From Nitrospirota bacterium (GTDB taxonomy: Bacteria > Nitrospirota > Thermodesulfovibrionia > UBA6902 > JAJYJJ01): a DNA stretch of 64,000 nt. The stretch lies in contig JAJYJJ010000001.1 of assembly GCA_021789595.1 (NCBI GenBank), positions 1 through 64,000 of the forward strand. Reading direction: 5' to 3'. The translations under genes and the position numbers were made by a program. Positions 23,128 to 31,588 of the stretch are shown here, piece after piece (within the stretch, counting starts at the first letter, position 1; every line of letters begins with the position of its first letter). Under the pieces are notes generated by a model that searched no databases, had not been told where the DNA came from, and saw only the letters and a program-made list of their open reading frames with translations.

Positions 23128-24213
23128 TCAAACCTCAATCTGTTTAAGCGCCTTTATCAATTTCACATTCTCCTCATGCCTTTTTATTGCTATCCTGATA
23201 AAGCCCTTATCAAGTCCATGGAAATTACTGCAGTCCCTGACGAGAATACCCATCCCTGAAAGCCTCGTTACAACATCGAGGGATGGGGGTGTCTTCAGGA
23301 GAAAGAAATTCGTATCCGATGGAAATACCCTGATATACTTAATCCTGAATAGTTCATTCAAGAGATACCTCTTTTCTGCCTCAATAACCTCCATAGTCTC
23401 CCTGAAATATGCCCTGTCACTCAGAGATGCCACAGCAGCCGTCTGTGCAAGGCTATTGACAGTCCACGGCTCTTTGATTGCCTTTAGCCTCTCTATAATA
23501 GCCGTGTTTGAGACTAAATAGCCAACCCTCAGCCCTGCAAGTGCAAAGAATTTTGTAAATGCCCTCAGCACTATGAGATTGTCCCTCTGTGCCGCCTCGG
23601 CTATCACAGAATGGGCTGATTGGAGATCTATAAATGCCTCATCTATTATGAGTAAGACGCCTTTCTTATCTGCCCCATCAATAATCCTCATTGTACCCTC
23701 TAACCTGAGAAGCCTTCCTGTTGGATTGTTTGGATTGCAGAGAAAGGCCATATCACAGTCTTCAAGTGCATCTATGAACCCCTCGGGATTGAGATTAAAG
23801 TCCTCATCTTCCTTTAGCCCAAGTGTAATCACCGCTGAACCAGCAATCGATGATGCCCTTTCGTATTCAGAGAATGTGGGAGATGCAATGAGCACCTTAT
23901 CGGGTTTAAATGCCCTCGGTATGAGGTATATCAATTCTGTTGAGCCGTTTCCGCAGAGGATAGTGTCAGGTCTTATAGAGTAGTGTTTCGAGATGGCATT
24001 TTTCAGTCTTGATGTGTTGTTGTCGGGATAAAACTGCAGCCTCTTTATATCCTTTCTTATGGCGGCCCTGGCCTTTCTTGATACTCCAATGGGATTTATG
24101 TTTGAGCTGAAGTCTATCACAGCCCTTTCGCTCAGCCCATGCTCCTTTGCAAAGGTGTATATATCGCCGCCATGTTCATAAGCCTGTTCAGAAGATTCAG
24201 AAGGTTGGGTCAT
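23128..24213 (-). CDS. cobD: L-threonine-O-3-phosphate decarboxylase / HisC-like aminotransferase of cobalamin synthesis
   Basis: HGGDIYTFAKEHGLSERAVIDFSSNINPIG; FLCNPNNPTGRLL; next to cbiB and cbiP. Confidence 0.88.
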   Translation of the reverse strand: MTQPSESSEQAYEHGGDIYTFAKEHGLSERAVIDFSSNINPIGVSRKARAAIRKDIKRLQFYPDNNTSRLKNAISKHYSIRPDTILCGNGSTELIYLIPRAFKPDKVLIASPTFSEYERASSIAGSAVITLGLKEDEDFNLNPEGFIDALEDCDMAFLCNPNNPTGRLLRLEGTMRIIDGADKKGVLLIIDEAFIDLQSAHSVIAEAAQRDNLIVLRAFTKFFALAGLRVGYLVSNTAIIERLKAIKEPWTVNSLAQTAAVASLSDRAYFRETMEVIEAEKRYLLNELFRIKYIRVFPSDTNFFLLKTPPSLDVVTRLSGMGILVRDCSNFHGLDKGFIRIAIKRHEENVKLIKALKQIEV

Positions 24214-24398
24214 AAGAGATATTCCTTTCTGTCTATTTGGTTATAGATGGAATGTTTGTCCATACCAAGATGTTATACCCTATTTCTATAATCAACATGA
24301 TATTGAGATCCTGTTTTATTTTTAATTTCAGCATTTTTTATTAATTATCTAAGGTTCTTTTTATAAGGTGTCGTATAGAGATTCTTCACCAGCCTTCC

Positions 24399-25403
24399 CT
24401 ATCTACTCATCAGATACAAGAGGCAAAATGCCGATACAAAGCCGATAAACGATGTGGCCGTCATGAGGTTTATGGATTCGATGCCAGAACTGATTCTAAT
24501 GGGCATGTCGCCATCACCTATGTAAGGCTTTGCAACAGTAATGCCGTTGTATGTGGATGGCCCTCCGAGCCTTACACCGATGGCACCTGCCATTGCAGCC
24601 TCTGGGAAGCCGCTGTTTGGGCTTGTGTGTTTTCTGCCGTCCCTGAGCATTACCTTTAAGGCATTTAAAGGCCGGGTAACACTGCTTTTACTGCCTCTTA
24701 GAAAAGACAGCAGGGTTTTTAAAAAGGCAGATATTATCAGCAGAAGCCCGGCAAGCCTTGAAGGGATGAGGTTCATCAGGTCGTCAAGCCGTGCAGATGC
24801 CCATCCGAGATATCTATACTGTTCATTCTTATATCCTACCATGGAATCAAGGGTGTTTATTGCCTTATAGGTCATGCATAGAGGCAATCCACCTATAACA
24901 AGATAAAACATCGGGGCTATTATGCCATCTGATGTATTCTCTGCAACAGTCTCTGTTACAGCCCTTATAATAGCCTCTTCGTTCAGATTAGAGGTATCCC
25001 TTCCAACAATAAATGACAATCGCTTTCTTGCCGCCTCTACATCCCCCTTTTTAAGGGACTCAAGGACATCTATGGATGAGCGGCGCAGGGATTTTGTGCA
25101 TATGGTTGTAGAGATAAGATAGGCCAGTATCAAGAAACCGAGCAAGAAAGAGATATTGTTTATTATCCAGTAAATTGCCCTGATGATAAACATGAAGGTA
25201 ATAAAGGTTATTGATACTGTTGTTGATGCAAGGACAATACCTGCTATCACTTCAGCCCTGTGAGATCTGGCAAACCTCCTGAGAACGGCCTCTGAAGCCT
25301 TTATCCACCATCCTATAATCCTGACAGGATGGGGGATAAACTCGGGGTCACCGATAATCATGTCCATTATATATGCAGATAAAAACGCTATGGAGTCGAC
25401 CAA
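24399..25403 (-). CDS. cbiB: Adenosylcobinamide-phosphate synthase
   Basis: MIIGDPEFIPHPVRIIGWWI; NTSDGIIAPMFYLVIGGLPLCMTYKAINTLDSMVGYKNEQYRYLGWASARLDDL. Confidence 0.95.
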   Translation of the reverse strand: MVDSIAFLSAYIMDMIIGDPEFIPHPVRIIGWWIKASEAVLRRFARSHRAEVIAGIVLASTTVSITFITFMFIIRAIYWIINNISFLLGFLILAYLISTTICTKSLRRSSIDVLESLKKGDVEAARKRLSFIVGRDTSNLNEEAIIRAVTETVAENTSDGIIAPMFYLVIGGLPLCMTYKAINTLDSMVGYKNEQYRYLGWASARLDDLMNLIPSRLAGLLLIISAFLKTLLSFLRGSKSSVTRPLNALKVMLRDGRKHTSPNSGFPEAAMAGAIGVRLGGPSTYNGITVAKPYIGDGDMPIRISSGIESINLMTATSFIGFVSAFCLLYLMSR

Positions 25404-26981
25404 CTAATACACCTTTTCAAAGAGTTCTAATATCATATCCATAGCAAGGTTTTCTTCAATGATGGATGCCCACTGCTGTATTGCAGTTTCCTTCAGTGCA
25501 TAGTAGTTTGTGTTTCTCTCTATATATGAAAGACCCTTCCTTATCCTGATGTGATTGACAATGGCATGCCTGAAGCTGTCGTTTTCAAAGATGCCGTGCA
25601 GGTATGTTCCCCATGTAATACCATCCTTATCCACTGCCCCATCTGAGGGCCCATCTGGGGGACAATGTGAAAGATCATCTGACTCCCTGGTAATCTTAGG
25701 GGACCCTCCATTGTATCTTATAAACCTGAACAGAGGCTCTCCATCATTAATGTGTGTTGTCCTTCCCATATGTATCTCATATCCCTTAAGGCTGTCAACC
25801 TTCCATGGAAAGGCAGGCAGAGGTAATGCAAGGCTCTGGGCTGTTATCTTTTCCCTTTCAATAACAGTCTCTACATCGAGCAGCCCGATGCCTTTTACCT
25901 CTTTTACATTACTTTCTATACCAAAGGGGTCCGATACCCTCATGCCGAGCATCTGATAGCCGCCACATATACCCATTACCATTATCCCTTTTCTCACAGC
26001 CCTTCTTATGGCATCGGCTATCCCTGAGTTATGTAAGTATTGCAGGTCATCCATTGTGTTTTTTGTCCCGGGTATGATAATGAGGTCAGCACCTTCAATA
26101 TCCCTTTCATAGATAGAGTAGTTGACCTCAACATCAGGCTCGGTATACAGGGGTTCAAAATCTGTAAAATTGGAGATGTGTGGAAGCCTGAGGACAACTA
26201 TCTTAAGCGGACTAATCGCTGTTGCATCGTTACTAAATGAGCCTGACTGGCTGTTACGGCCTGAGAGATAAACGCTGTCCTCTTCTGAAAGGCCGTGGCC
26301 TCTGGCAAATGGTATAACCCCAAAAACAGGCCTGCCGTATTTCTTTTCAATAAAATCCAATGCAGGCCTGAGTATCTCTTTATCGCCTCTGAATTTGTTT
26401 ATAACGAAGCCATTGATTATGTCGCTTTGACTGCCGAGGATCTCCATTGTGCCTACAATCGAGGCAAAGACGCCTCCACGCTCTATATCGCCCACAATGA
26501 GCACAGGCGCACTGGCAAGCCTTGCAACCCTGATATTTGCTATGTCTCTATCCATTATGTTTACCTCTGCAGGGCTTCCAGCACCTTCTATTACGATGTA
26601 ATCATATGCGGATGAAAGCCTGCGGTATGACTCTTCAACAGTAATCCATGCCTTTTCTACAAAGCCATAGTAATCCCTCGCATCCATGGCCGAATATACC
26701 TTTCCGCGTATGATTACCTGACAGGACATGTCTGAGTTTGATTTGAGCAGCACTGGATTCATATCAACAGACGGCTCTGTCCTGGCTGCCTCTGCCTGTA
26801 ATGCCTGCGCCCTTCCTATCTCGCCTCCATCCTTTGTTATAAAGGAATTCAAGGCCATGTTCTGCGACTTGAAAGGTGCAACCTTAAGCCCCCTGTTTGA
26901 CAGTATCCGACAGAGCCCTGCTACAATAAGGCTCTTCCCCACATGGGATGCAGTGCCCTGTATCATCAATGCCTTTGCCAT
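25404..26981 (-). CDS. cbiP/cobQ: Cobyric acid synthase
   Basis: MIQGTASHVGKSLIVAGLCRIL; PFKSQNMALNSF; GICGGYQMLG. Confidence 0.96.
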   Translation of the reverse strand: MAKALMIQGTASHVGKSLIVAGLCRILSNRGLKVAPFKSQNMALNSFITKDGGEIGRAQALQAEAARTEPSVDMNPVLLKSNSDMSCQVIIRGKVYSAMDARDYYGFVEKAWITVEESYRRLSSAYDYIVIEGAGSPAEVNIMDRDIANIRVARLASAPVLIVGDIERGGVFASIVGTMEILGSQSDIINGFVINKFRGDKEILRPALDFIEKKYGRPVFGVIPFARGHGLSEEDSVYLSGRNSQSGSFSNDATAISPLKIVVLRLPHISNFTDFEPLYTEPDVEVNYSIYERDIEGADLIIIPGTKNTMDDLQYLHNSGIADAIRRAVRKGIMVMGICGGYQMLGMRVSDPFGIESNVKEVKGIGLLDVETVIEREKITAQSLALPLPAFPWKVDSLKGYEIHMGRTTHINDGEPLFRFIRYNGGSPKITRESDDLSHCPPDGPSDGAVDKDGITWGTYLHGIFENDSFRHAIVNHIRIRKGLSYIERNTNYYALKETAIQQWASIIEENLAMDMILELFEKVY

Positions 26982-29811: not shown

Positions 29812-30417
29812 CTATCCAATCCAGACAGTCTTTTTAAAGTCTTTCATCCCTTCCACAATATGGTTTGTTGTACCTCTATAGCCGACTTTAAGTTCAGATT
29901 CAAGGTTGTAGTATTTAAGGCATGTCCCGCAGGAGAATATCTCGACACCCATGGCCTCAAGCTCTTTTAAAATTGGTATTATCTCTTCATTGACAGTCGT
30001 TAACTTCACACCTGCGTTTAGAAAAAAAATAGTATGTGGAAATTCCTTATATACCTTCATTGTCTCAAAGAATGACTTCATCAGGATCTTGCCGAGTTCT
30101 TCATCCTTACCCATTGTATCAGTGGCAATAACGAGGAGTAAGTGCTTCTTCTCTTCGGGCAGGACAGACCCTGCCCCTACAGCTTCTTCTGGGCCAATTT
30201 CACACGGATAACCTTTAACTATCTTTACACGCCAGTAATCATCCTCTTTTGTTGTCTCTGAAAAAAAACCATTCTTTGAAGCAAACCTTGCGAGATTTTT
30301 TACAGATGCCTCATTGTCCACGAGGACATCCACAATGCCTTCGCCTATCTTTGAAAGGGCCTCTTCTGCCATTATCACAGGCTTGGGACAACCCATGCCC
30401 CTTGCGTCAATCTGCAT
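29812..30417 (-). CDS. yedF: YedF-type selenium metabolism protein (TusA/SirA domain + DsrE-like domain)
   Basis: MQIDARGMGCPKPVIMAEEAL then HLLLVIATDTMGKDEELGKILMKSFFETM...FLNAGVKLT...GVEIFSCGTCLKYY. Confidence 0.9.
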   Translation of the reverse strand: MQIDARGMGCPKPVIMAEEALSKIGEGIVDVLVDNEASVKNLARFASKNGFFSETTKEDDYWRVKIVKGYPCEIGPEEAVGAGSVLPEEKKHLLLVIATDTMGKDEELGKILMKSFFETMKVYKEFPHTIFFLNAGVKLTTVNEEIIPILKELEAMGVEIFSCGTCLKYYNLESELKVGYRGTTNHIVEGMKDFKKTVWIG

Positions 30418-30444: not shown

Positions 30445-30543
30445 TGGAGAGGGATAGTGGGAATCGAACCCACCAGGCTCCCTTTTTTGGTTCAGCCTGC
30501 ACTGGGTTTGCAGCCCAGGTAAGGCACCAGCCCCTTGTCCCTC
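30445..30543 (-). tRNA. selC-like tRNA with Cys anticodon GCA (tRNA-ReC class), CCA encoded
   Basis: GAGGGACA|A|GGGGC-TGGT-GCCTT|A C|CTGGG-CTGCAAA-CCCAG|TG|CAGGCT-N14-AGCCTG|GTGGG-TTCGATT-CCCAC|TATCCCTC|T|CCA. 8-bp acceptor (one C.A mismatch), 4-nt D-loop, long variable arm, anticodon GCA, discriminator U73. Confidence 0.88.
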
Positions 30544-30551
30544 GCTAACAA

Positions 30552-30580
30552 TTTATAGATAGATATAATTAATAAGTCAA
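30552..30580 (-). promoter_or_regulatory. Sigma70-type promoter for the selC-like tRNA
   Basis: TTGACT-N17-TATAAA, about 8 nt upstream of the tRNA 5' end. Confidence 0.75.
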
Positions 30581-30694
30581 ATAGAAAATATCTATATTAA
30601 AGACCCGATTTATGGATTATGCTGATATGGAAACTATTTGCTCTGATAATGCATTTGCCGATACTAATACATTTATCGCACTACATTGCAGGAA

Positions 30695-31588
30695 TCAAAT
30701 GCCTTTTGATTCGGCCTTTATGTGTTCTAAGAATATTTTGTATACCGTGGGAAGCGTCCTTTTTCTGTGGGTTATGATATAGAATTTGCGTTTCATTTCT
30801 ATGCCGTTTATCTTTATCTCTTTGATTGTTTTGAATTTTAGTTCATCAGTTACAGACAGCCTTGATAGTATCGAAATGCCCAACCCTGCCTTTACAGCCT
30901 GTTTTACAGCATCTGTGGAACCAAAAATACCTGCAATCTTGATATCTTCAATTGTGACCCCTTTACCTTCTAATATCTTTTCAGTTTCTCTTCTGGTTCC
31001 TGAACCTTCCTCGCGTAAGATCATGGGAATCTTGATTAACTCCTTTAAGGTTATAATATGACTTTTCATTAGGGAGGGTGCAGAGACGAGGATTAACGCG
31101 TCTTCCATAAATGGTATGTAGGTTATCTTTTCATTATTTAGTTTTGCGCCGACGATTCCTAACAGCAATTCATTTTTCAAGACCCTTTCAGCAGTTTCTC
31201 TGGAATCAGATACAAGTATCTGAAAGGAAACAGAGGGATATTTTTTCTGAAATGATGCTATTATGGATGGCATTAAATATGTGCCTGGAATTGTGCTTGC
31301 ACCAATGATCAGTTCGCCTGCGATCTCATTTTTAAATTGGCAGATGACCTCTTTAATGTTATTGGTTTTTTCTATTATATCCATTGCATAATTATATAAG
31401 ACCTCTGCTTCTCTTGTGGGTATGATTGTTCTACCCAATCTATCAAATAATCTGCAGTTCATCTCAGCTTCCATCGCCTTTATGTGGTCACTTATGGTTG
31501 GCTGTGAGAGGTAAAGCCCTTCAGATGCCTTTGAAAAGCTCCTGTTCTTAAATACAGATACAAAGACCCTTAGATGATGTATGTCCAT
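30695..31588 (-). CDS. LysR-family regulator, probably the selenium metabolism-associated type
   Basis: MDIHHLRVFVSVFKNRSFSKASEGLYLSQPTISDHIKAMEAEMNCRLFDRLGRTIIPT; immediately upstream of the selC-like tRNA and yedF on the same strand. Confidence 0.85.
   Translation of the reverse strand: MDIHHLRVFVSVFKNRSFSKASEGLYLSQPTISDHIKAMEAEMNCRLFDRLGRTIIPTREAEVLYNYAMDIIEKTNNIKEVICQFKNEIAGELIIGASTIPGTYLMPSIIASFQKKYPSVSFQILVSDSRETAERVLKNELLLGIVGAKLNNEKITYIPFMEDALILVSAPSLMKSHIITLKELIKIPMILREEGSGTRRETEKILEGKGVTIEDIKIAGIFGSTDAVKQAVKAGLGISILSRLSVTDELKFKTIKEIKINGIEMKRKFYIITHRKRTLPTVYKIFLEHIKAESKGI

Follow-up and report, generated by a model that had tools for sequence, protein, structure and literature searches.

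A tRNA-ReC gene flanked by selenium-metabolism genes and preceded by a conserved promoter box in a Nitrospirota bacterium

The selC-like tRNA-Cys genes, whose primary accounts reportedly include that of Mukai (NAR, 2017), are said to owe the name tRNA-ReC to Vargas-Rodriguez (RNA Biol., 2018), who reportedly also proposed a safeguard role for them. tRNA-ReC works in E. coli, and the reason why bacteria retain it has been unclear. A tRNA-Cys from Desulfotomaculum nigrificans, with a GCA anticodon and the structure of tRNA-Sec, is delivered by SelB, not by EF-Tu, and reads the Sec codon UGA as Cys (PMC11415595); the first-pass annotation of the DNA analyzed here had invoked this precedent, which the review confirms. 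The class has been reported from Firmicutes, Thermodesulfobacteria, Nitrospirae and Proteobacteria, and its reviewed cloverleaf has an 8/4 branch with a bulged A51a in the T stem, a bulge that is called dispensable (PMC7609411). The regulator LysR_Se/HrsM and YedF are products of selenium genes; in Methanococcus, HrsM fits the selenium-free (Cys) isoenzymes to the selenium supply, and in the presence of selenium, archaeal HrsM acts as a repressor of the Cys isoenzymes (PMC5322559).

The window, that is, the whole 64,000-nt stretch of DNA analyzed here, contains a gene of the selC-like tRNA-Cys type, which is 99 nt long including the CCA and lies exactly where the first-pass annotation had placed it (Table 1). 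Its parts follow in the order GAGGGACA, A, GGGGC-UGGU-GCCUU, AC, CUGGG-CUGCAAA-CCCAG, UG, CAGGCU...AGCCUG, GUGGG-UUCGAUU-CCCAC, UAUCCCUC, U and CCA. The acceptor (GAGGGACA/UAUCCCUC) indeed has the eight positions claimed for it at first reading, but C7·A66 is a mismatch, so only seven of the eight pairs are canonical; in other tRNA-ReC members (L083, L087), pair 7-66 is U·U. The canonical tRNA-Sec of the same genome, with G·A as its eighth acceptor pair, also falls short of a perfect 8-bp acceptor. The D arm consists of a 5-bp stem (GGGGC/GCCUU) around a 4-nt UGGU loop, the anticodon stem (CUGGG/CCCAG) closes the loop CUGCAAA from which GCA is read, the variable arm has a 6-bp stem (CAGGCU/AGCCUG), and the T stem (GUGGG/CCCAC) has 5 bp without a bulge. 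The short D loop, the long variable arm, the anticodon and the discriminator T followed by an encoded CCA all agree with the first-pass annotation.

Table 1 Features of the tRNA-ReC locus in the window
Feature	Position	Strand	Details
tRNA-ReC gene (selC-like tRNA-Cys)	30445..30543	-	RF01852, model R1, sequence, covariation in 25 relatives
Anticodon GCA of tRNA-ReC	30511..30509	-	
Discriminator U73	30448	-	
Encoded CCA	30447..30445	-	
Sigma70-type promoter of tRNA-ReC	30552..30580	-	-35 TTGACT 30580..30575, 17-nt spacer, -10 TATAAA 30557..30552
Conserved 24-nt box, ATAGA-N5-TCTAT-TTGACTTAT	30572..30595	-	Candidate LysR_Se binding site, abuts/overlaps -35
LysR_Se, selenium metabolism-associated LysR-family regulator	30695..31588	-	Directly upstream of tRNA-ReC; NF040786
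yedF, sulfurtransferase-like selenium metabolism protein	29812..30417	-	TIGR03527

Rfam cmscan matched the gene to tRNA-Sec (RF01852) with 55.5 bits, above the gathering score of 47 (E 1.6e-8 for the window as a whole), and this model beat the generic Rfam tRNA model. ARAGORN called no tRNA at this position, and the covariance model R1, built here, gave the gene 88.1 bits; the comparison of selC with ordinary tRNA models thus came out on the selC side. Further covariation analysis was performed with 25 aligned Nitrospirota relatives, covering the 23 pairs of the acceptor, D, anticodon and T stems. The paired cells amounted to 96.3%, against 54-63% with the partners slid, and two-sided changes occurred in 14 of the 23 pairs, seven of these 14 in the acceptor; none of 500 shuffles reached either the percentage of paired cells or the number of two-sided changes. 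RNAalifold, unaided, recovered the same stems except for the terminal acceptor pair. These data support a real selC-type fold, far above chance.

The first-pass annotation had proposed looking elsewhere in the genome for a UCA selC, for selA and selB, whose lack would speak against its reading, and for a normal tRNA-Cys. All of these were found in the assembly, which spans 2.23 Mb and is 99% complete. The canonical selC, which has UCA and G73, is located at C4:144914-145007 (L001:1501-1594; 71.1 bits), selA is followed directly by selB, which a TIGR00475 search of the genome found in one copy, and an ordinary tRNA-Cys is encoded separately from tRNA-ReC. There is also a single cysS, fused to cysE. 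The fusion (L054:1558-3675) encodes 705 aa with the cysE domain in front, which puts Cys synthesis and Cys charging into one gene. In two formate dehydrogenases, the codon exactly at the catalytic position is an in-frame TGA (ARY-TGA-HSATVAGLA; ARI-TGA-HSATVAALA), with hairpins of -22.7 and -25.0 kcal/mol 3' of the respective TGAs; the organism therefore possesses genes for selenoproteins, and with them UGA targets for recoding. A third paralogue, on the tRNA-ReC contig, has TGT at the Sec position and a weaker downstream fold of -15.6 kcal/mol. The selC fold with GCA and U73, in a genome with canonical selC, selA, selB, tRNA-Cys, cysS and UGA formate dehydrogenases, marks the gene as a tRNA-ReC by every sequence-level criterion, which supports the identity first proposed.

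When 61 relatives were searched for tRNA-Sec without a filter, 10 genomes, the source genome included, yielded a selC-like GCA gene, and U73 was present in all 10, whereas the canonical selC genes read in this and a later search were UCA/G73 throughout (59/59). The covariance model built here splits ReC (71-107 bits) from canonical selC (approximately 60-66 bits) and detected ReC in 68 of the 231 genomes of the class, or in approximately 74 of 231 with six longer genes included; GCA, U73 and CCA were found in all of the best 30 model matches. The six further genes (G052, G118, G119, G117, G115 and G111) score 62-69 bits because the matches are 127-132 nt long, and the three of them that were read (L292, L293 and L294) have a very long variable arm and keep both GCA and U73. 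Ordinary tRNA finders would probably miss genes of such length. In a pattern scan of named genomes, members were found in Nitrospirota, Desulfobacterota (Desulfacinum), Actinomycetota and Bacillota, the latter comprising the Desulfotomaculum group, Carboxydothermus and Sulfobacillus; 28 of the 80 matches failed the structure check, one of which (L113) was readmitted by eye. As U73 was built into the scan pattern, its occurrence in these matches is no evidence.

A separate tRNA-Sec was found in at least 42 of 47 ReC genomes, and the idea that ReC genomes commonly do without selC was rejected on this count. Second tRNA-Sec matches in four loci (L063, L064, L065 and L067) proved to be tRNA-Ser(UGA) and were dropped; these genes pass the RF01852 gathering threshold with 50-53 bits, so that, taken by itself, the Rfam tRNA-Sec model calls too many selC genes in this class. 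Between tRNA-ReC in the window and the selC of the same genome, 72 positions are identical, including the whole 17-nt T arm, which suggests that tRNA-ReC arose from a copy of selC; the change from UCA to GCA needs one step, U34 to G34.

The bulge in the T stem varies among the members of the class. The A51a bulge of the reviewed cloverleaf (8/4 form) is present in Desulfacinum (L074). The relatives of D. nigrificans in Desulforamulus and Desulfotomaculum combine a 5-bp T stem with a bulged C. In the window copy, as in nearly all members from Nitrospirota, the T stem of 5 bp runs without a bulge (8/5). A51a was therefore treated as a trait of a subgroup and not of the class in general.

The class itself has already been described, Nitrospirae included, and what may be new is the genomic setting, since tRNA-ReC set among LysR_Se, yedF and a promoter box was not found described in the literature searched, which consisted mainly of reviews. 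None of these three elements had been mentioned in the first-pass annotation. The upstream regulator scored 312.4 bits against NF040786 (LysR_Sec_metab; curated cut-off 250), and the downstream protein 206.7 bits against TIGR03527 (selenium_YedF; cut-off 110), its translation containing the CPXP and CGXC motifs as CPKP and CGTC. The yedF gene, preceded by the ribosome-binding site AAGGAGG, starts 27 nt after the CCA of tRNA-ReC on the same strand, and the two are probably co-transcribed. Elsewhere in the window (23128-26981, minus strand), a cobalamin cluster (cobC/cobD-like aminotransferase, cbiB, cobQ) was recognized from translations alone.

The promoter first noted upstream of the tRNA (TTGACT-N17-TATAAA) is real, and the transcription start predicted from it falls at approximately the first base of tRNA-ReC. 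Immediately upstream of the -35 element and overlapping it lies the box ATAGATATTTTCTATTTGACTTAT, which contains the dyad ATAGA-N5-TCTAT. The box is kept at a fixed position, -50 to -52, in 11 ReC promoters, namely that in the window and those of ten further Nitrospirota loci; it is exact in one (L117) and matches at 17-21 of 24 positions in the nine others, with nine or ten of the ten dyad positions retained. Shuffled upstream stretches seldom reached such scores (p 0.017 or less). Its carriers include Thermodesulfovibrio (L057/L058) and the arrangement in which tRNA-ReC precedes selB without an adjacent LysR gene. In 16 of the 26 other Nitrospirota ReC promoters, the box was absent from this position. 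The tRNA-ReC promoter is the sole match to the box with fewer than three mismatches in the whole genome, and the genome-wide scan for further copies gave only background; a wide LysR_Se regulon using this exact box in this genome is thus unsupported. The dyad may be bound by a LysR-type regulator, which is the natural guess. Its overlap with the -35 element may suit repression, though activators of the LysR family can also sit there.

A selenium gene (LysR_Se, YedF, SelB, SelA, SelD or YedE) was located within 5 kb of ReC in 28 of 56 non-redundant loci, many of them with short flanks, compared with one of 31 control loci. All the LysR neighbours of ReC that were tested, from other Nitrospirota and from two MAGs, one of Desulfobacterales and one of Peptococcaceae, pass the NF040786 cut-off, and the alignments of truncated yedF matches in L061 and L083 contain no in-frame stop. 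In a second arrangement, found in Nitrospirota and Desulfobacterota loci, selB starts 27-46 nt after tRNA-ReC. Most genomes of this type have two SelB, the Nitrospirota G063, G070 and G088 among them, whereas one SelB was found in the sampled genomes of the LysR/YedF type and in the source genome. An extra selB has been reported for two deltaproteobacterial groups (PMC7609411), and the second selB of Nitrospirota ReC genomes therefore extends its range beyond them. Overall, the gene downstream of ReC varies by locus and may be selB, yedF, yedE, a double-cubane gene or an unrelated gene.

Other neighbours were also observed. In an Actinomycetota locus (L120:5587-7998), the order is cysE, tRNA-ReC, cysS, which puts the tRNA next to the gene of the enzyme presumed to charge it and therefore gives independent support for Cys identity. 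Beside ReC in Nitrospirota, Bacillota and further groups (L072, L075, L084, L087, L088, L093, L100 and L101), a reductase of the double-cubane-cluster type (NF040772 for L100 and L084) recurs together with its activase, whether or not LysR_Se is there; this is perhaps a selenium-linked reductase, and a cursory look showed no UGA in it. A transglutaminase-core protein (PF01841) adjoins ReC in three Nitrospirota loci (L117, L127 and L148). Two genomes stand out in their Sec machinery. ReC, LysR_Se and the double-cubane protein are present in nDJH15bin8 (G079 = G127, L100), and no selA, selB or selC was found in this 81% complete bin, which may reflect its incompleteness or a SelB-independent use of ReC. 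JdFR-86 (G055 = G092, L125/L252), a 100% complete genome in which no canonical selC was detected, has ReC, SelB, LysR_Se and two YedF.

The location of ReC between two selenium genes and behind a conserved box suggests that it may supply Cys at Sec codons when selenium is scarce. By the mechanism proposed, a selC copy would have become a cysteine tRNA through G34 (UCA to GCA) and U73, and would be charged with Cys by CysRS, as in D. nigrificans. The 13-bp acceptor/T branch would make it a poor ligand of EF-Tu and a ligand of SelB, which, again by analogy with D. nigrificans, would bring Cys-tRNA to a UGA followed by a SECIS hairpin, here in the two Sec formate dehydrogenases, the G34·A3 mispair being tolerated at UGA. 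An active Cys form of the enzyme would thereby still be made when Sec-tRNA is short. We further propose that LysR_Se may bind the box and couple the dose of tRNA-ReC to selenium status, presumably by repression at plentiful selenium, in analogy to what archaeal HrsM is reported to do. Since architecture and identity are alike and this cell has one SelB together with UGA targets, the D. nigrificans reaction is the best explanation, and we regard charging by CysRS and delivery by SelB to SECIS-UGA as probable and dose control by LysR_Se as possible. However, some observations count against it: GCA pairs properly with UGC/UGU and not with UGA, pair 7-66 is C·A, the T stem is unbulged, nDJH15bin8 is without selA, selB and selC, approximately half of the ReC loci show no selenium gene nearby, and the box is absent from its fixed position in 16 of the 26 other Nitrospirota promoters. 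A stronger version, in which LysR_Se at the box sets the ratio of ReC to selC by selenium so that every SECIS-UGA switches between Sec and Cys, with Cys perhaps permanent in genomes such as JdFR-86, is put forward only tentatively and is more doubtful than not in our judgement.

The selC body combined with GCA would also suit a tRNA-Sec with a Cys anticodon, which would be serylated, converted by SelA and used to insert Sec at SECIS-linked UGC/UGU, as in Aeromonas salmonicida. Such tRNAs exist (PMC11415595), and the long variable arm is a feature recognized by SerRS (PMC7609411). However, U73, a main CysRS element, is found in every member read without a U73 filter and all tRNA-Sec read have G73, the D stem of the window tRNA-ReC has 5 bp, and in the genome a normal selC (UCA) persists alongside two selenoprotein genes with UGA, which makes a serylated tRNA very improbable here. 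Even if Cys-charged and SelB-delivered, the tRNA might read not UGA but UGC/UGU before SECIS-like hairpins, in the Cys forms of selenoproteins. These codons are cognate to GCA, and the Cys formate dehydrogenase with TGT on the same contig keeps a fold, albeit one weaker than the hairpins of the UGA genes; but nothing would be gained, because ordinary Cys-tRNA already decodes UGC/UGU, and the D. nigrificans tRNA-ReC has been shown to read UGA (PMC11415595). We give this reading little credence, if marginally more than a serylated tRNA.

The CCA, U73 and GCA of a usable tRNA-Cys and the one acceptor mismatch would also be in line with an additional Cys isoacceptor, delivered by EF-Tu and reading ordinary Cys codons, or with a selC copy in decay. 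Against both stand the strong covariation that holds the 8-bp acceptor and the selC fold across the class, the existence of a normal tRNA-Cys, the lowering of EF-Tu binding by a long acceptor (PMC7609411) and the linkage to SelB, LysR_Se and YedF, and this explanation seems as improbable as serylation. The position of tRNA-ReC 27 nt ahead of yedF on the same strand might instead reflect a tRNA-like leader that regulates yedF and is not a working tRNA; yet the downstream gene varies by locus while GCA, U73, CCA and the fold stay, and the gene has its own promoter, whose predicted start lies close to the 5' end of the tRNA, so that a leader is the least credible of these alternatives.

A selenium regulator and a conserved promoter box beside tRNA-ReC, in a genome with a normal selC, offer a testable reason for its retention, namely fallback Cys selenoproteins at low selenium. 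If true, the meaning of a codon would be set by nutrient supply, with one SelB serving two tRNAs, amounting to a switch in the genetic code that selenium controls. Occurring in about one-third of the genomes of the class, ReC is not a curiosity.

Compared with known systems, the window tRNA-ReC has the same selC architecture, GCA and U73 as the described tRNA-ReC class and, like it, occurs alongside a canonical selC; also shared are hosts among the anaerobic bacteria, Nitrospirae included, and a selB copy downstream in some relatives. The window copy differs in its LysR_Se and yedF neighbours, its promoter box and a single shared SelB. The long variable arm and the acceptor of eight positions are common to tRNA-ReC and canonical tRNA-Sec (RF01852 and the copy of this genome), from which the window gene differs by GCA for UCA, U73 for G73, a 5-bp D stem and a shorter linker after the acceptor. 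The tRNA-Sec(GCA) of A. salmonicida shares the selC body and GCA with it but is reported to put Sec at UGC (PMC11415595), while the window copy carries the Cys element U73. Finally, HrsM targets single isogenes, whereas LysR_Se has as its candidate target a tRNA through which Cys would take the place of Sec in every selenoprotein simultaneously.
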